A stretch of 26,744 nt of DNA from a bacterium (GTDB taxonomy: Bacteria; JAJRZV01), in contig JAJRZV010000048.1 of NCBI GenBank assembly GCA_024275095.1, forward strand, positions 1 to 26,744, written 5' to 3'. Under the pieces are notes generated by a model that searched no databases, was not told the origin of the DNA, and worked only from the letters and a program-made list of their open reading frames with translations. Every line of letters starts with the position of its first letter. Within the stretch, counting starts at the first letter, position 1. Below, piece after piece: positions 1 through 9,271 of the stretch. A program made the translations under genes and the position numbers.

Positions 1-816
1 GATGGCCGCCTCAAGACCTGTAAGTTCTTCCTTCTTTTTTGCAGCGGAAGAAGCTTTCTCCTCTCTTTCCTCAGCAATTTTTGACAGTGTGTTTTCTATA
101 TTCTTCAATTGCCGTTCCAGTTTTACTCGCATAATCCGATTTTTCTCAGCCTGAAGTTTACGAAAGCGCTCTGCTTTGTTGGCCTGACGTTTCAAACTGT
201 TACGCTGTCTTTCCAGTTCCCTGATTATGTCCTGGACGCGCGATAAGTTCTCCTTAGTCCTGTCCATGCGTCTGAGCGTTTCCTCACGGCGTTTACGGTA
301 GCGACTAATACCAACGGCTTCGTCTACATATCTGCGCAAATCATCGGGACCAGCAGTCGCCACCTCAGAAATTTCGCCCTGAGCAATAATGGAAAAGGAG
401 CGGCTGGTAATGCCTGCATCCATTAAGAAATCGGTAATATCTTTCAGTCTCACAACTCTTCCATTCATGATATATTCGCTCTCCCCCGAGCGATAAAGAA
501 CACGGGATATAGAAAACTCGGTGCTCCCATTGTTCTTTTCTATAAGTAAGGGGTCCTCCAGAACAAACGTGAGGGTTACCTCGGCAGAACCTGCCGGCTT
601 CCTGTCATCAGTACCAGCAAATATCACTTCTTCCATGGAATAACCGCGAAGAGCTCTGTAACTTTGCTCACCCAGACACCACCGTATGGCATCCAGGATA
701 TTGCTCTTGCCACTTCCGTTGGGACCGACGATGGCTGTTATACCCTCGTGAATTTCCAGCACCTGACGCTCGGCAAAAGATTTAAATCCCTGGAGCTCTA
801 TGGTTTTTATTTTCAT
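1..816 (-). CDS. smc: Chromosome segregation ATPase SMC, N-terminal part (runs off the left edge)
   Basis: The first 272 codons of an SMC protein are present; the reading frame is still open at the window edge. SMC dimers use ATP-driven head engagement to organise and segregate the chromosome together with ScpA and ScpB. The N-terminal head opens with MKIKTIELQGFKSF, has the Walker A loop GPNGSGKSN at residues 31-39 and the following DAIRWCLGEQS stretch. The Q-loop region (IIAQGE) and a YRKRREE segment follow, leading into the first heptad-rich coiled coil from about residue 180. The ATG overlaps the TGA of the upstream TPR gene as ATGA, which indicates translational coupling and fixes the start. 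The hinge, second coiled coil and C-terminal head lie outside the window. SbcC or RecN are less likely, because the start and the LGEQS signature are typical of SMC. Confidence 0.95.
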   Translation of the reverse strand, partial: MKIKTIELQGFKSFAERQVLEIHEGITAIVGPNGSGKSNILDAIRWCLGEQSYRALRGYSMEEVIFAGTDDRKPAGSAEVTLTFVLEDPLLIEKNNGSTEFSISRVLYRSGESEYIMNGRVVRLKDITDFLMDAGITSRSFSIIAQGEISEVATAGPDDLRRYVDEAVGISRYRKRREETLRRMDRTKENLSRVQDIIRELERQRNSLKRQANKAERFRKLQAEKNRIMRVKLERQLKNIENTLSKIAEEREEKASSAAKKKEELTGLEAAI

Positions 817-3800
817 TGTAACCGTTGCAATTCCCGCCTTGCCGCTTCTTCTAAATCAGACGGCAATCCTATTTTCAAAGCCCTGGTAAAATATCTACGC
901 GCTTCACTCCAGCGAGAAAGACGCCTGAGAACTACCCCTGCAGAATAATAGGCTTCAGCAAAGTTTTTATCAAGAGCAAGTGCCCGCTTGAAAAAAGTAA
1001 AAGCCTGGTCGAGAGACCCCTCCTCCAGCAAAATTTTGCCCAGCAAAAAGTAAGTTTCCGCAAGAGGCCTTATTCTGAGAGCACTGTAAAGGAGTTTCTT
1101 TCCTTTCGATATGTTGCCCTGGTATATCTGTACTTTACCAAGTTTTGTCAGGACATCAGCACGGCGCCCAAAACGCCTGAGCGCCTGTGAAAGAATTCGC
1201 TCAGCTCCCTGATAATCACCTGTAGTGATGCGCAAATCTCCAAGAAGAACATATAGATCTTTACGGTTGGGATGTGCTCCTATAGCATCCTGAAGCACCC
1301 TGGAAGCTTCACTTGTTCGACCCTTCCTGATCAGGCTTTTTGCGTATATGCTGGCATAATCAGGATCATCCTTTTTAGCAAGATAAGCCTTTTCTGCATG
1401 ATAAAGTGCCCTGTCAATGTTTCCCATCTGCCAGAAAATTCGGGCCAGATTGTAGTGTGCTTCATGATACCCGGGGTTAATCTCTGTAACCTTTTTGTAC
1501 AAACTTTGAGCTTTATCTTTCATTCCCTTCATGGAATAAACTTCCGCCAGGTTGAACAAAATATCAACATCAAGCGGCTTTCCAGCAGAAGCGTTTTCAT
1601 AGTAGCGGATAGCCCTGTCCAAATCTCCGGACTCGCGAGCCACCTTCCCAGCTTCCTTAAGAACATCCACATCATTCGGAAACTTGGATAAAAGTTCATC
1701 ATATACTTTTAAAGCTTGAGAAAACGCACGTTCTTGAGAATAAAGACGTGCCAGCTTTAAGTACATGGCTTTATTCTTTTCGCCTGTCCATTGAAGATAC
1801 CTGTGGAGACAGAGAATAGCTCGGGGCATATCCCCGCCCTTTTCAAAAATATCCGCGAGTTCTTTTAAAAGTTCTGCATTTTCACGTGATATACTCTCAA
1901 AAGCATAAAAGGCTTGAGTAAGTGCTGATTGACGGGAATTCTTCATGAGTAAAATCCTGGCGTATACAACCCGAGCTTCTGCATTTGAAGGGTCTCTCAT
2001 CAACACCTGACGCATCATTTCTTCGGCCTTAGACAAAGATTCCTTATCTCCCTCTTTGGCCGCCATGATTCTCGCGTACAGGATTCGGGCCTTTACATGG
2101 TGTGGTGATTTTGATAAGACTTCTTCCACCACTCTTATCGCTTCCTTACTCTGGTTCAAACGATAAAGCGACTCAGCGTACGCAACTGCCATGTCAGCAT
2201 TTCCCGTCTCTCTATAAAGGGTGGAATAATACTGAGAGGCTGCCGCATAATCTCCGGCAGCGAATCGTGCTTTCGCCATGAATTTCAAAGCCTCTATCTT
2301 ATAGCGTTCCTGATTTGCCAGTACTTTTACCGTTTGCTCTGCCTCGTTATATCTATCTGCCAACGCGAGCAAACGTCCGAGTTCCAGGCGTAATTTAGGA
2401 TCATCATTCACCCTCAACTCTTTCTGTCCTTCCTTTATGGCCTGATCGGTCTCACCTTTTATCCACAAAAGGTTCATACGTGCACGTGTGTACAGCGGCC
2501 TCAATTCCACAGGCACCTTGTTATTTTTAATTTTCGAAAGGAGTTTTTCAGCTGAAGAAGCGTTTTTATAAAATCGAGATTCAATGTAGGCCAGTAGCAG
2601 CGTAAGTCCAAGATGCCCCTCAGGTGTTTTTTCAATATGTTTACGTGCATATCTGACAGCCTGTTCAATCTTTCCGTCTTCCAAAAGGGCTTCAGCTGCA
2701 AAGAACGCAGCAGAAGGGGTAAGTTCTTTGCCCGCACCAGAATATTTCTCTACCACGGCAGATACAATCGAGAAAAATGCTGCTGCGCGCAGCTGTGCGA
2801 GAAAGAGGGTTATGTCTACCGGATCGAGTTCATTCCAATTGACTTCAGCTATTTTTCTCTGAAGCTGATCTTTGTCTCCGGACGCACAAGCGACCATCAA
2901 TTGAAGCACATTCAAAACATTCGGAGGAACATCCTTCTCACCCTCAATCGAAGACAAAAGGTCCATCTGCCACACATGAATTCCCCCGCCTTTCTCGGTT
3001 GAGCGAATGAAACTCATCTCCAGGAAACGCACGATACTTTTCCAGTAATGAGGTGCGATGGCTGCCGCTTTTACTGATGCTGTGTAAAGTGAATCTATGT
3101 CCAACAGGGAAGAGTATGAAACCTTTTTATCAAGCCCTGTGATTATCTCTTCTGCTTCTTTTATCTTGGAAGAACTTTCTTTCAGCAGTCCACGACGAAG
3201 GTTCAGAATTTTCGTTCCCGAAGCAGCTTCCGGATTCCCCACATACTCAAATGTGTAATAATAATATCCTCCAATTCCCCCCAGCAGGAGCACAAGAAAA
3301 CCAAGGGCCATCGGAAGGGCGATGCGACGTGTACCTGGTCTTTTCTCTTCTTCCTCTTCCTCCTCCTCTTCCTCTTCCTCCTCCTCTTCCATAAGAAACT
3401 CGTCGAAACTGATCTCTCTGCCTTCCCCCGTCTCCCTCTCCTCTTCTTCCTCCTCTTCTTCCTGAAGCAAACTTGATAGTTCTTCTTCCAGCGACTTCAA
3501 TTCATCATCTTCCGCCGTGAATTCTTTCTCTTCGGGAGCTTCCTCGACATCCTCCACCGTCTCAACCTCAACGCCTTCTGTATACAGCGAGTCCTCTTGC
3601 TCCTCCTGGTCACCCAGAAACGTTACACCTTTATCCAGAACTTCGCCTTCCTCTCCCACTTCCTCTTCAATAGAAGCGAAACTCACTTCTTCTTCCCGCT
3701 CTACAGACTCCTCCGCGGAAAGAGTCTCAGCCTCAAGCGACTCGACCGAAACCTCCTCTTCCACTTCGCCTTCTTCCTCCGGAGCGGCGACACCAGCATC

Positions 3801-3941
3801 CACATCCTGTTGAACCGGTATATCTTCTTCTCCCATCACATCTGCGAATTCTACCTCCTCCTCTTCCTCCTCTGCCTTAACGGAATCAATCAGCGGGGGC
3901 TCTTCCACTACTTCTTCAACAGATACAGATGTGTCTTCCAC
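813..3941 (-). CDS. Membrane-anchored TPR protein with acidic N-terminal region (probably the C-terminal part of a split zinc-ribbon/TPR protein)
   Basis: The open frame encodes 1,042 residues from a GTG at 3941. Residues 1-198 are extremely acidic and look disordered, ending in a run of 14 Glu. KRPGTRR is then followed by one membrane segment (about 206-228). The remaining ~800 residues are helical, with roughly a dozen TPR units clearest from about 560 to the end (LYRETGNADMAVAYAESLYR, HYNLARIFWQMGNIDRAL). Basic residues before the membrane segment suggest that the acidic part is cytoplasmic and the TPR solenoid periplasmic; this is inference. The frame is open upstream for another 21 codons to a TGA and is the same frame as the preceding zinc-ribbon gene. 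The GTG start has no distinct ribosome site beyond purine-rich Glu codons. The stop overlaps smc as ATGA. TPR domains imply protein binding; the partner is unknown. Confidence 0.75.
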   Translation of the reverse strand: MEDTSVSVEEVVEEPPLIDSVKAEEEEEEVEFADVMGEEDIPVQQDVDAGVAAPEEEGEVEEEVSVESLEAETLSAEESVEREEEVSFASIEEEVGEEGEVLDKGVTFLGDQEEQEDSLYTEGVEVETVEDVEEAPEEKEFTAEDDELKSLEEELSSLLQEEEEEEEERETGEGREISFDEFLMEEEEEEEEEEEEEEEKRPGTRRIALPMALGFLVLLLGGIGGYYYYTFEYVGNPEAASGTKILNLRRGLLKESSSKIKEAEEIITGLDKKVSYSSLLDIDSLYTASVKAAAIAPHYWKSIVRFLEMSFIRSTEKGGGIHVWQMDLLSSIEGEKDVPPNVLNVLQLMVACASGDKDQLQRKIAEVNWNELDPVDITLFLAQLRAAAFFSIVSAVVEKYSGAGKELTPSAAFFAAEALLEDGKIEQAVRYARKHIEKTPEGHLGLTLLLAYIESRFYKNASSAEKLLSKIKNNKVPVELRPLYTRARMNLLWIKGETDQAIKEGQKELRVNDDPKLRLELGRLLALADRYNEAEQTVKVLANQERYKIEALKFMAKARFAAGDYAAASQYYSTLYRETGNADMAVAYAESLYRLNQSKEAIRVVEEVLSKSPHHVKARILYARIMAAKEGDKESLSKAEEMMRQVLMRDPSNAEARVVYARILLMKNSRQSALTQAFYAFESISRENAELLKELADIFEKGGDMPRAILCLHRYLQWTGEKNKAMYLKLARLYSQERAFSQALKVYDELLSKFPNDVDVLKEAGKVARESGDLDRAIRYYENASAGKPLDVDILFNLAEVYSMKGMKDKAQSLYKKVTEINPGYHEAHYNLARIFWQMGNIDRALYHAEKAYLAKKDDPDYASIYAKSLIRKGRTSEASRVLQDAIGAHPNRKDLYVLLGDLRITTGDYQGAERILSQALRRFGRRADVLTKLGKVQIYQGNISKGKKLLYSALRIRPLAETYFLLGKILLEEGSLDQAFTFFKRALALDKNFAEAYYSAGVVLRRLSRWSEARRYFTRALKIGLPSDLEEAARRELQRLQ
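3339..3390. repeat. 52-base uninterrupted pyrimidine tract (purine on the coding strand)
   Basis: The plus strand is C/T only from 3339 to 3390, built from tcc/ttc units. On the coding strand it gives GAG/GAA codons for the poly-Glu run just before the membrane segment of the TPR protein. Similar but interrupted tracts lie at about 3430-3460 and 4490-4520. Such tracts can slip in replication and can form triplex or R-loop structures; no function can be read from the sequence. Confidence 0.8.
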
Positions 3942-4004
3942 CTCTCTTTCTTCCCCTTCCAGAGAAACTTCCGCATCCTCCTGGGATGGGGTTTCAAAGC
4001 CTTC

Positions 4005-4007
4005 TCA
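4005..4007 (-). other. In-frame TGA separating two halves of an apparently continuous reading frame
   Basis: This TGA ends the zinc-ribbon ORF directly after codons for VDFGDVM. The same frame stays open on both sides, and the next possible start is a GTG 63 bases on. On the plus strand, 4001-4019 matches 3827-3845 at 17 of 19 positions, and both copies lie in the same reading frame. In the second copy the equivalent codon is GGA (Gly), giving VEFADVMG. A single G-to-T change explains the stop. Other genes here end in TGA and encode Trp as TGG, so a genome-wide reassignment of TGA is not supported. Confidence 0.8.
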
Positions 4008-5246
4008 CATCACATCTCCAAAGTCCACATTCTCTTCTTCACCCACTTCGTCTGATATTTCCTCACGCCACGATTCTTCTTCCACCTCGGGCTTTTCCTC
4101 CATCGGAAACACATCCGTCGTTGTAGTTTTATCTACTCCCTCTGATTGAAATGTGACATCTTCTTCCTTCTCTTCCGCTTTTTCCATTTCATCACCAAGG
4201 GTTCCGAAATCAACCTCGTCTTCTTCGGGTAATTGATCAGCCTCTTCGCGAGTAATGGAAAATTCCTCCTCGGCTGTGGGAAACGTTTCTTCAATCCCTT
4301 CTTCGCGGGGTGCTTCGCTATCAAGAGGAATGCTTCCAAAATCTATTGCTTCACTCTCTTCTTCCGTCTCCTCTCTCATGGAGGTATCTACTGTTTCAGA
4401 AAGGTCCTGTGTGTCCTTGAAAAGTTCATCAGGGAGCTCTGCTTCCGCTTCCCCGGCCAGAAAATCGCCCATCGACTCAACGACTTCCTCTTCTTCAACA
4501 TCCACGGACTCCGCTTCTTCCTCCAGGGATTCACCGGACTCTGAAACCTCTCTCGAAGGTTCCTCGGTCACCCCGGCCTCCTCTTCAGAGGAAAGGTCTC
4601 CAAAGCTCACGTAATCGTCCACCTGTTCTTCTTCCGATGGTGGAATCTCTTCACCTGGTTGAACTTCGGCTGTCTCCTCTTCGGCGGAAGTGATGGAGTT
4701 AAGTGCTTCCTTCACCTCTGCGTCCGCTCCCGACTCGGCCAACGTTCTTTCAAGATATGGGCGTGCCTCTTCCGCCTTTCCCAGGCGGTACAATGAAAGC
4801 CCCAATCCCCTGAGTGCTCGAAGATTTTGAGGAGATGCGGAAAGAACTCTCTGATACACGCCCACAGCTTTATCAAGCTCACCCAGGGCAAGATAGGCAT
4901 CGCCAAGGTATACAAGAATTGACGAATGCGAATAAAAACGATCTCCCGTGCGTTTGAAAATTTCGGGGATAAGGTCATATTGTTCACGAGATATCAGTTC
5001 TCGGCAGATTTTCATCATGGACGGGGCATGTCCTTCTTCCACCGCTCGTTGAAAATCTTCCTGCAAATGCGATGGTATCTGGTGAAGAATGGGTGTTTCT
5101 CCTCCTTCAGGCGGTTTCTCCTCCTTAATAATTTCCACCTGAAATGTGAGGCCGCACTTCTGGCATCGAAACATATTTTTATTCCTGTGCAGCAGTGCTT
5201 CAGGAACATCATAAACAGCCCTGCACCTGGGGCACCCGAATCTCAT
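4005..5246 (-). CDS. Zinc-ribbon (MJ0042-like) TPR protein with long acidic tail (probably the N-terminal part of a split protein)
   Basis: The ORF encodes 413 residues from ATG 5246. This start is chosen because it overlaps the PHP gene stop as ATGA and has an AAAGGTGG ribosome site about 8 bases upstream. Upstream in-frame GTG codons at 5258 and 5255 are less likely, since they lie in that site. Residues 1-36 form a four-Cys zinc ribbon (CPRC and CQKC pairs around AVYDVPEALL) of the kind at the N-terminus of many deltaproteobacterial regulatory or membrane proteins. Residues 70-185 form two or three TPR units (ILVYLGDAYLALGELDKAVG). From about 190 the chain is Glu/Ser-rich and apparently disordered, with recurring motifs YVSFGDL, AIDFGSI, EVDFGTL and NVDFGDV. 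It has no membrane segment; that is supplied by the next ORF if the TGA at its end is not a true stop. The exact function is unknown. Confidence 0.8.
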   Translation of the reverse strand: MRFGCPRCRAVYDVPEALLHRNKNMFRCQKCGLTFQVEIIKEEKPPEGGETPILHQIPSHLQEDFQRAVEEGHAPSMMKICRELISREQYDLIPEIFKRTGDRFYSHSSILVYLGDAYLALGELDKAVGVYQRVLSASPQNLRALRGLGLSLYRLGKAEEARPYLERTLAESGADAEVKEALNSITSAEEETAEVQPGEEIPPSEEEQVDDYVSFGDLSSEEEAGVTEEPSREVSESGESLEEEAESVDVEEEEVVESMGDFLAGEAEAELPDELFKDTQDLSETVDTSMREETEEESEAIDFGSIPLDSEAPREEGIEETFPTAEEEFSITREEADQLPEEDEVDFGTLGDEMEKAEEKEEDVTFQSEGVDKTTTTDVFPMEEKPEVEEESWREEISDEVGEEENVDFGDVM

Positions 5247-5896
5247 GCTGACCACCACCTTTTAAATATTTGTTTCATTTCCTCTTCTATACGATTCACC
5301 TCTTTTCTGCTCAAACCTGCAGCGAGGGCAACCCTGCGTCGAAACTCTTGAGGCATAATGTCTTCAGGACCATGTGCATCAGAATTCACGCACAGAGGAG
5401 CTCCAACCTTCCTGGCGATACTGACAACAACGCCATTACCCAGACAGTGACCCTTGCGATAAGTAACTTCCAGAAGCACCGATTTCCCTGCAGCAGCTAC
5501 TGCCACCTCTTCATCAATGAGCCCCGGATGAGCCAACACGTCCACACCAGCCTCTACAGCAGCGGCATTTGTGCCTTCCCATACAGGCTCAACAAGGGTT
5601 TCACCGTGAACAAGGACAACTCTGGCCCCGGCTTTTCGCAATTCCCGGGTGAGATGTTTGATGTCCTCCGGTCTTACATGTGTAATCTCTGCACCAGGCA
5701 GTACCGTCAATCCTTTCCTGGTGAGAGCCTCGCAGGCTTTGAGAACATTGCCCAGGACAAATTCAAAATTGGAATGGTCCACATGGTCAGTAATTACAAA
5801 TCCCTCAACCCCCACGCTCATCATGCGGCGGGCCAACTCGGCAGGTATGAGTTCTCCGTCGCTGAAAACGGTATGAGTGTGAAAGTCGTATTTCAT
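5243..5896 (-). CDS. PHP-domain phosphoesterase (histidinol-phosphatase-like)
   Basis: The 217-residue protein consists of one PHP domain, a metal-dependent phosphoesterase fold. The expected metal ligands are visible in order: HTH at 6-8 followed by FSDGEL, ITDHVDH around 36-41, GAE at 68-70, VHGET with H97, LAHPG with H123, and NSDAHG at 171-176. The length suits a stand-alone PHP protein related to histidinol phosphatase, but no histidine-biosynthesis genes are nearby, so the substrate is unassigned. It is cytoplasmic, with no signal peptide. Both ends use ATGA overlaps, with the receiver/PATAN gene upstream and the zinc-ribbon gene downstream. Co-transcription with signalling proteins may mean a role in signal or nucleotide turnover, but that is inference. 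Confidence 0.85.
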   Translation of the reverse strand: MKYDFHTHTVFSDGELIPAELARRMMSVGVEGFVITDHVDHSNFEFVLGNVLKACEALTRKGLTVLPGAEITHVRPEDIKHLTRELRKAGARVVLVHGETLVEPVWEGTNAAAVEAGVDVLAHPGLIDEEVAVAAAGKSVLLEVTYRKGHCLGNGVVVSIARKVGAPLCVNSDAHGPEDIMPQEFRRRVALAAGLSRKEVNRIEEEMKQIFKRWWSA

Positions 5897-7437
5897 GTCA
5901 TGGTCCTTGTGAAAAAACTTTTCATGAATTCAGTAATAGAAGATGGTCTGTGTATATTAACCAGGTGAATCTCATCTTCATCAAAAACTTCCCTGAGTTT
6001 TTGAACGCATTCTTCTATCAAATTTTCGTGTGCCTTGTTTTTCTTAAACGTCTCGTCCAGGAGGGTGTAAAACACAGGCCGGTATACTTTCCTGCGATAA
6101 AAATTTACCATTTCAATCACATCTTCGCAGACATTGAACCCTCTTGAAGGATGAAAGATCACAATGGCTCCGAGCGTATCCCCTGAGAGAAAATGCCATA
6201 AGGGTTTCATTGTGCTACCCGTCGGAAGAGTGAAAAACTCCACTTCAAAGCTCTCTGATGGAGCGTAACGGCCCACACTACCGAAAGCGTGGGGTTCAGA
6301 CTCAAGCCCTTGAATTTCTATGGTGAAACGATCAAAGGTTTTCAATATATCTACAAATATTATCTTATCATCTCGCTCGTTAGGAATAAGAAGCACACGC
6401 GGTTTGCCCACAAATATAAAATCCTGCTTAATGCTTTCCATCCGTTCCATGTACTTGAGCATCACATCGGGAGGAATCAATTCATCACGCCGTTTACCTG
6501 TCTCGCGTATTGGTTTCATCAAGGAAAGTATTCCCCTATCAATGAGCGCTTTAATCGTCACAAGGACTTCGTAGTCAGGATACGTACAGTTTTCCATAAT
6601 ATCCTCTACGCGTGTGTAAAACTCCGCAAGCAATAACACCTCTTTTGTAATGGGCTTGAGCGTTTCGTCCAGCTCGTGGAGTGGTTTCACAAGCCTTACG
6701 TGGTCGTTCAGTGTGGGCAGGGCTGTTTTCCTCTTTTCATACTCATCCATTTGACGCATGGCTTCCATGAGAAGGTTATCAGGAGAGGTTTTTATGTGTA
6801 CCGGAGAGATAGGACGACCGGGAATAAACTCGAAGCGCCCTTTCTTCCACTTCAAAAGCCTGAAGAGCGCTTTCTCTCCCTCGATTCTGCCCAGCATTGC
6901 ATTAATAATGTAGCCTTTTTCCAGGTACACAAAGCCTTTTTCACCATTTTCAGCGTTTTCTACCAGTATGGTCCCGTCTCTTCTGTTTATTGTGAGAATT
7001 TGTAAAAGGTCGATAAGGCTCATCTGTTCAAGTTTGCCTTCTATCTCCTTTTCCCCGGCCACGGCTTCTTCGTCACGCTCTATCTTCTCTGAAATTTCTT
7101 CCACCTTTTGCCTTACACCCGCTACCACATTGCCATCTTTCTTCACCCACTTGTCATGTACGGACTTAATGGCTTCTATACGTGCCTTGTCCCTCACTAT
7201 GAAAATAAAAGGTGTCTCTTCTGTTTTGGGATTGTTCCTCAAGATCTGTACAATTCGTTCAAAAGGAACAACAGATATATCCTCGTCCAGCACAATTACA
7301 TCTGGAGCCTCTGTCACAGCCATTTCTATGGCCCTTCCCCCGCCTCTTGCAACCGAAATTACATGCCCGTCTTTGCGAAGAGAATCCCGCAAGCTGATAA
7401 GAATGCGCTGATCTTCACCTGCAACGAGAACCTTCAC
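5893..7437 (-). CDS. Receiver-PATAN (DUF4388) protein with a C-terminal GTPase-like region lacking a P-loop
   Basis: The protein has 514 residues from GTG 7437, chosen for an AAAGGAG site 7 bases upstream and because the preceding gene stops 1 base before it. A longer ORF from 7473 would overlap that gene. Residues 1-120 look like a response-regulator receiver: an acidic pair (GED, 7-9), a candidate phosphoacceptor Asp51 (VIVLDED) and Lys near 99; the usual Ser/Thr after the fourth strand is not evident. Residues 132-207 match the PATAN/DUF4388 pattern (GKLEQMSLIDLLQIL, DGTILVEN, KGRFEFIPG). A winged-helix-like stretch follows at about 255-310. From 345 to the end, the order of strands and helices resembles MglA/Ras-type GTPases, but the P-loop position reads PNERDDK. 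I therefore call it a putative pseudo-GTPase, by inference. PATAN proteins generally act as protein-interaction modules in regulation and motility. Confidence 0.75.
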   Translation of the reverse strand: MKVLVAGEDQRILISLRDSLRKDGHVISVARGGGRAIEMAVTEAPDVIVLDEDISVVPFERIVQILRNNPKTEETPFIFIVRDKARIEAIKSVHDKWVKKDGNVVAGVRQKVEEISEKIERDEEAVAGEKEIEGKLEQMSLIDLLQILTINRRDGTILVENAENGEKGFVYLEKGYIINAMLGRIEGEKALFRLLKWKKGRFEFIPGRPISPVHIKTSPDNLLMEAMRQMDEYEKRKTALPTLNDHVRLVKPLHELDETLKPITKEVLLLAEFYTRVEDIMENCTYPDYEVLVTIKALIDRGILSLMKPIRETGKRRDELIPPDVMLKYMERMESIKQDFIFVGKPRVLLIPNERDDKIIFVDILKTFDRFTIEIQGLESEPHAFGSVGRYAPSESFEVEFFTLPTGSTMKPLWHFLSGDTLGAIVIFHPSRGFNVCEDVIEMVNFYRRKVYRPVFYTLLDETFKKNKAHENLIEECVQKLREVFDEDEIHLVNIHRPSSITEFMKSFFTRTMT

Positions 7438-7438
7438 C

Positions 7439-9271
7439 TCACAACTCCTTTTCAAATACGTAAGAGTCTTCAAGTTTTACAACGAGGTTCTCCACCAGGT
7501 GAGAATCAGTGCTGTGGAACCCGGAAAAAGCCCCGTCTGGCCCAGCCTTCAAGAAGGTACAATATGTGCCAAGCTCACCCACATACACGAGGAAATACGT
7601 GCCTTTGAGGGATTCATCCGTAAGATATACCGGCACTACGGGAGAAATATCTTCATCGCGCGGACCGTCACCTGCGATAAGGTATACTTTTGTTGATGTA
7701 TTCTTCAGGCGGTGGTGGTGCTGATAAAATGGCTCTTCATTGTCAATTATTTCCTCTCCCACGTATAGAACTCCCCGGGCACTGGGATTGCGTGCAATTT
7801 CATTAATAAGCATATACTTGAGAGATTGCAAAAACGCTCCGTCACCCTGAATAGCCACACTTATCTCGTCAATATTTTCAGTCCCGCGAATACTCAAAAA
7901 TTGAAAAATCTCATCGAGACATACAAGAAAAGGTTTATCCTCCAGATGTAACTTGGCGTAAACACTCCCTCTCACGTGTTCGATACGTCGTTCCCCAACA
8001 TCCATAAGAGACCCATAATCCAGACCATCTCGAGGATACGTGGCTTCAACCACAACAATCTTCAGGGGCAGCCATTCTTTACGAGGGCTGTGAGAAACCG
8101 AGGCAGCCCAAAAGGCTCGAAGCAGCCGTTTTTTTAACGTCAAAGCACCGTAATAATCTGTTTCTGAAAGCACCACCGCATATCTGTCATCTCTGATTTT
8201 GCTGATAACATCAGAGCTTCTCACAATGCTGTTGATAATGGTGAGCATGCGAGTAATGGATGCCTGGACGGCTTCTGAACGGTATTGGCGCTTGAGGTCT
8301 GGATAATTCTCCACACTGATAAAAAGTACGGAAACTACCCGGCGAAATCTGTGAGCCTTTTGTATCTCCTTGTCCAGATAATCCCTGAAAAAGCTCAGGT
8401 TGTATACACGCATCTCCGTGTCAATTAACTGGGAGCGCCTCAGGCGTTCAAGACGGCTGGTACTGTGAAGTGCAGCCGCGGCAATACGCAAAACTGCGTG
8501 CAATCCTCTCACCAGCAGAGGATCGTACCTTTCCCTATCTACAAAAACCTTTACTATTCCTATTACATCTCCTTGAAAATCCAAAAATGCCTGCAGGACG
8601 ACTTCACCACGTGCAGCTTTAACATCTGTCTCCACGAGTTCATTCCGTGGAAATTCTGGAGCAGGAGCTGCATCAGAAGAATCTATAGCAGAAGGTTCTC
8701 CCCTCATTTCTACTTCACCGGTCGCGGAAGTCATAATATATTTTCCAGGTGCCTCAACTCCCTTCATCCAGCCAATACCACCTCTCGCATCCAGTCGAGA
8801 GGTAAGAATTTCCAGCAAGCGTTCCATAACCCTGTAGGGATCATCAAAAGAATACAAATCAATAATCTCGTCAAAATGGTCGAAAAGAACGGAATTCGTA
8901 CGTGCAAGCTCCCGCAAACGTACCACATAGTTGGCCTCTTGAATTTTCTTCCGAAGTTCCACTGAAGAGAGGGGTTTCTTCAAAATATCAAAAAATGTGG
9001 ATGCAACTTTTCCATCCAGAGATTTAAATACCTGGGGAGAGCATATTCCCAGAAGCACGTGATTTTCTCCGTCCACACTTCTAATGGAAGATGAGCCTCT
9101 TACACTTTCGTTATCAAGATTGCACATAACCACACTGAAATTATGAAGTGAAAACCCCGGGGGCAACCGAGGCTCCATGGAAACTTCTACACGAAAACCG
9201 TGACTTTCAAAAACACGGCTCAGTGCAGCCGACTGCTTTTTATCAAATCCCCATACAAGTGCCTTTCTCAT
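7439..9271 (-). CDS. Receiver-like / GAF-like / degenerate GGDEF signalling protein
   Basis: The protein has 610 residues. Residues 1-112 resemble a receiver domain (C-terminal FDILKKPLSSVELRKKI is typical), but the expected phosphoacceptor region reads VVMCNLDN, so phosphorylation is doubtful. Residues 130-265 have a GAF-like sensory layout. Residues 275-435 align with a diguanylate cyclase domain (YNLSFFRDYLDKEI, then RSSDVISKI), but the GGDEF signature is RDDRY (360-364), so cyclase activity is not expected. The last 170 residues, including FYQHHHRLKN and GTYFLVYVGELGTYC, match no family I can name. The ATG start has an AAGGAG site upstream and overlaps the VanZ-like gene stop as ATGA. The receiver/PATAN gene follows after 1 base. 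No signal peptide or membrane segment is seen. It is probably a cytoplasmic scaffold or sensor; no ligand can be assigned. Confidence 0.7.
   Translation of the reverse strand: MRKALVWGFDKKQSAALSRVFESHGFRVEVSMEPRLPPGFSLHNFSVVMCNLDNESVRGSSSIRSVDGENHVLLGICSPQVFKSLDGKVASTFFDILKKPLSSVELRKKIQEANYVVRLRELARTNSVLFDHFDEIIDLYSFDDPYRVMERLLEILTSRLDARGGIGWMKGVEAPGKYIMTSATGEVEMRGEPSAIDSSDAAPAPEFPRNELVETDVKAARGEVVLQAFLDFQGDVIGIVKVFVDRERYDPLLVRGLHAVLRIAAAALHSTSRLERLRRSQLIDTEMRVYNLSFFRDYLDKEIQKAHRFRRVVSVLFISVENYPDLKRQYRSEAVQASITRMLTIINSIVRSSDVISKIRDDRYAVVLSETDYYGALTLKKRLLRAFWAASVSHSPRKEWLPLKIVVVEATYPRDGLDYGSLMDVGERRIEHVRGSVYAKLHLEDKPFLVCLDEIFQFLSIRGTENIDEISVAIQGDGAFLQSLKYMLINEIARNPSARGVLYVGEEIIDNEEPFYQHHHRLKNTSTKVYLIAGDGPRDEDISPVVPVYLTDESLKGTYFLVYVGELGTYCTFLKAGPDGAFSGFHSTDSHLVENLVVKLEDSYVFEKEL

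Follow-up and report, generated by a model that had tools for sequence, protein, structure and literature searches.

The window (the whole 26,744-nucleotide stretch of DNA analyzed here) contains, at positions 816 to 9271, an operon of overlapping ORFs coding for a GGDEF protein, a DUF4388 protein, a PHP-domain protein, a zinc-ribbon/TPR membrane protein, and smc; we take the pairing of the zinc ribbon with DUF4388 to recall polarity or motility modules. The gene for the zinc-ribbon/TPR protein, which like all features of the window detailed below lies on the minus strand, is broken in the deposited sequence. Its N-terminal half, ORF A (4005 to 5246), runs from an ATG at 5246 to an in-frame TGA at 4007-4005 and comprises a zinc ribbon, TPR repeats, and the first half of an acidic linker. 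The same frame then continues from 4004 to 813 (ORF B) through the second half of the linker, a membrane segment, and a long TPR array, the first possible start of this continuation being a GTG at 3941. An alternative start for ORF A, the GTG at 5258, lacks a ribosome site. Counted from the ATG at 5246, the fused frame has 1477 residues and a single stop, at position 414; the TGA is its sole interruption, and the frame of ORF B is otherwise undamaged. Thus, the two ORFs are indeed parted by this TGA alone, as the first-pass annotation had it. That annotation also singled out the junction as unlike the others between 9271 and smc, and rightly so; the TGA at 4007-4005 is without overlap, whereas all remaining junctions overlap (ATG 816 of smc over TGA 815-813; 5246/5243; 5896/5893; 7473/7439).

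The first-pass annotation had further envisaged a fusion of about 1,477 residues in the order zinc ribbon, TPR, acidic linker, membrane segment, and TPR, with which both the Pfam matches and the translation agree. An MJ0042-type zinc ribbon at the N-terminus (Pfam code PF13717, Zn_ribbon_4; 5142 to 5246) exceeds the curated cut-off (E 1.6e-8; 34.8 bits versus 30.3) and is followed by N-terminal TPR repeats (4698 to 4919), for which PF13432, PF07719, and PF14559 are all over the cut-off. A long C-terminal TPR array occupies 870 to 2246 (PF14559, E 1.8e-55, plus others). Between the linker and this array, a membrane segment of about 25 residues, IALPMALGFLVLLLGGIGGYYYYTF (3249 to 3323), is predicted from the translation, and the basic stretch that precedes this hydrophobic segment suggests that the N-terminus would lie inside and the C-terminal TPR array outside. 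The protein thereby resembles the MJ0042/Zn_ribbon_4 TPR membrane proteins, which have an N-terminal Zn_ribbon_4 domain, TPR repeats, and one membrane segment. It differs from them in its long acidic linker with seven copies of a short motif, which has no match in Pfam, and in that the NCBIfam TPR models (PrsT, GltE, FlcA, and MamA) all score under their cut-offs; no full-length family model matches it. Searches for orthologs in sets of 59 and 192 genomes, along with a scan of contigs, recovered no ortholog, just TPR matches of a generic kind and the window again, the genomes compared sharing only the domain with the JAJRZV01 organism and none belonging to the same phylum.

The linker, about 450 residues in length, provides a link between the two halves. 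It holds seven copies of a VDFGDL-type motif with the pattern [VIL][DSEN]F[GASD][DSTEN][LIVMF], four before the TGA and three after it, ahead of the membrane segment. The first four are VSFGDL (4593 to 4610), IDFGSI (4329 to 4346), VDFGTL (4197 to 4214), and VDFGDV (4011 to 4028), the last of which is followed by a Met and then by the TGA. Beyond the stop come VEFADV (3837 to 3854), which belongs to a near-identical copy of the preceding stretch with a sense codon at the position of the TGA, VSFASI (3669 to 3686), and ISFDEF (3396 to 3413). In 5,000 shuffles of the linker the motif occurred 0.04 times on average and twice at most, a figure that overstates the significance somewhat because the motif was defined after the sequence had been inspected. 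Glu makes up 30% and 39% of the residues on the two sides of the stop. Lying at 3396-4610 between the zinc ribbon/TPR part and the membrane segment, the array resembles a multivalent docking array.

The near-identical copies pointed out by the first-pass annotation are real, the 19-mers at 4019 and 3845 being identical at 17 of 19 positions with a sense codon in the second copy where the first has the TGA. By itself this repeat counts for little: a match of 17/19 is reached by 41 pairs of 19-mers in the linker, almost all of them from Glu runs, although the pair at 4019 and 3845 is among the few that are not. The motif array and the acidity shared by the two sides are stronger evidence for one gene. 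Further, the stretch of 21 codons (63 bases) from the TGA to the first possible start has a coding-like score in the shared frame (0.36) but in none of the other five (all at -0.09 or below). The shared frame, the motif array that spans the stop, and the coding signal that resumes just past it give good support to a single gene that the TGA divides into two ORFs.

The evidence that tips the balance is a census of comparable stops, taken in 1.74 Mb of non-N sequence of the same assembly, about 72% of the genome, the criterion being a coding signal in one frame on both sides of the stop with all six frames compared. Two earlier versions were dropped, one based on a codon score as too insensitive and a second as too loose. 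The census yielded 67 candidates without a close ATG, 50 of which were checked in Pfam with an X at the stop. Many candidates, such as YchF/shikimate dehydrogenase, SecE/NusG, and S18/L9, were left out of the count as true neighboring genes in one frame. In at least 14 other conserved genes, however, an in-frame stop stands alone, and Pfam homology extends across it or lies on both of its sides. TAA interrupts prfB, dnaE, a T2SSE ATPase, an ABC permease, an enolase-superfamily protein, and two methyltransferases; TAG interrupts a LeuA-type synthase, glutamate 5-kinase, an M16 peptidase, AFOR, and an M50 peptidase; and TGA interrupts SufB and a RhuM-like protein. With the window included, the tally is seven TAA, five TAG, and three TGA, which corresponds to roughly one detectable nonsense change in every 116 kb screened. 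Alignments to solved structures cross the stop in seven of these genes (dnaE, prfB, T2SSE, AFOR, proB, M16, and SufB). The residues aligned to the stray stops are mixed and include Glu, Asp, Arg, and Leu; hence, a single class of substitution (e.g., G to T) is not claimed as their cause.

Two of these interruptions are particularly telling. The TAA in dnaE lies in the finger domain, and this gene is single-copy, the genome having neither another DnaE candidate nor a PolC-like one; that in prfB (L160:1461-2585, G000:C21) is a lone in-frame stop in the middle of the PCRF domain. In 58 other genomes most dnaE matches are without an internal stop and a few have one (G057, G041, and G017), and SufB, also single-copy here, is the sole interrupted version among the matches listed from 31 genomes; both genes are almost always intact in the other phyla compared. 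One of the exceptions, G057 (one contig, 5.0 Mb), has a TAG in dnaE (C1:2465201-2468251) and another in a TPR match (C1:780228-780632), and TAG could be reassigned or read through in that genome.

No cell could live without both its only replicative polymerase and, when UGA is the stop it mainly uses, RF2. The stops in dnaE and prfB are therefore absent from the living cell, and with both genes broken, the assembly must carry base errors or minority variants. As an assembly error would lead one to expect, interruptions like that of the gene in the window are also present in other conserved genes of this assembly that are single-copy and indispensable, and at the density found in the census one stray stop in a window of 27 kb is unremarkable. 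From this genome-wide pattern we infer that the TGA in the window belongs to the same class of stray stops. Taking these observations together, we consider it likely that the locus is one gene of 1,477 residues and that the TGA at 4007-4005 is a base-level error of the draft assembly. The gene would then be one frame coding for a zinc ribbon, TPR repeats, the acidic linker, a membrane anchor, and the C-terminal TPR array, the TGA would be either a miscalled base or a minority variant chosen by the assembler, and the full-length protein of about 1,477 residues would probably be made in the cell by ordinary translation. Such errors are known from deposited genomes. A parallel is offered by Mycobacterium smegmatis, where a significant proportion of interrupted coding sequences are reported to be sequencing errors (PMC1852416). 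There too, genes that are intact apart from one point change are disrupted in the deposited sequence; those cases were settled by resequencing and proteomics (PMC1852416), whereas here the argument comes from the genome-wide pattern and the broken dnaE and prfB.

The other readings of the locus rank, in falling order, as a recent mutation, two proteins with a restart, and read-through. A real nonsense mutation that arose recently in the sequenced strain, leaving a young pseudogene or only the cytoplasmic zinc-ribbon/TPR half, would account for the undamaged remainder of the frame, as expected of a young mutation; single-base nonsense changes occur in all genomes, the protein is not obviously essential, and the single stop here may be a real mutation while the others are errors. 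Yet no living cell could have the similar stops in dnaE, prfB, and sufB all at once, and the error rate alone predicts stops of this kind, so we regard such a mutation as unlikely. Less probable again is the production of two proteins, one soluble with the zinc ribbon and TPR and the other a TPR protein anchored in the membrane, by termination at the TGA and restart within the linker at the GTG at 3941, 3839, or 3764. ORF B does keep its membrane segment, and the Shine-Dalgarno (SD)-like sequence upstream is strong for the GTG at 3839 (-11.2) and fairly strong for that at 3764 (-9.5). However, such scores come cheaply in a purine-rich linker, where the anti-SD background has a median of -5.3 and its strongest 10% lie at -9.8; apart from the GTG at 3839, the internal starts blend with this background, and the GTG at 3941, 21 codons past the TGA, scores an unremarkable -7.2. 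A restart is also at odds with the coding character of the 21 codons after the TGA, with the continuation of the motif array past the stop, and with the overlap at every other junction of the operon.

Besides error and mutation, the first-pass annotation had raised regulated read-through of UGA. Some ribosomes would then decode the TGA as an amino acid, so as to yield a short soluble and a long membrane form. The frame beyond the TGA is intact and coding-like, as read-through would have it, and a prokaryotic survey describes in-frame stops in bacterial genes as widespread and often, or at least possibly, read through (PMC7918605). UGA, however, serves this genome as a normal stop codon; TGA terminates 555 of 1,054 stop-to-stop open frames of more than 250 codons in 72% of the genome, making it the commonest stop, and prfB, the gene for RF2, is present (522.7 bits versus a cut-off of 370). 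Both findings rule out reassignment of UGA under code 4 or 25. Selenocysteine insertion at the TGA is likewise rejected, both of its components falling below their cut-offs: the best SelB candidate reaches 108.4 bits against 242.25, with matches typical of other translation GTPases, and no tRNA-Sec with a UCA anticodon is above the gathering score (best 46 versus 47) or found by ARAGORN in 72% of the genome. Among the 36 tRNAs that ARAGORN reports from the same 72% there is no suppressor tRNA, and no Rfam element matches within the window. Moreover, TAA, TAG, and TGA all occur among the stray stops, so nothing about these is special to UGA. The prfB gene carries AGGGGGTATCTTTGAC, which we take to be the canonical RF2 autoregulatory frameshift site; it too has an in-frame UGA inside a gene and passes it by programmed recoding, whereas the TGA in the window has no frameshift site and the frame is unchanged across it. 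Read-through is thus neither needed nor supported, and we hold it to be very improbable; of the explanations offered in the first-pass annotation, error gains from the census of the same assembly and read-through loses.

For the survey's view (PMC7918605) to apply here, it would have to cover three stop codons, and dnaE and prfB together. The resulting picture would be one of leaky termination at all three stops, in which dnaE, prfB, sufB, and the membrane scaffold are all made by read-through, and we find it barely credible. As a part of that joint picture, UGA at this locus would give a short soluble and a long membrane-anchored form, to which we attach just as little credence. Real stops would imply that this lineage terminates translation in a leaky manner that has not, to our knowledge, been described for bacteria. 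Under the reading we prefer, that of an assembly error, the locus illustrates the false appearance of recoding that one draft genome from a lone phylum can give, and because even dnaE and prfB carry lone stops, any claim that a gene of this assembly is read through, split, or a pseudogene needs the support of reads.
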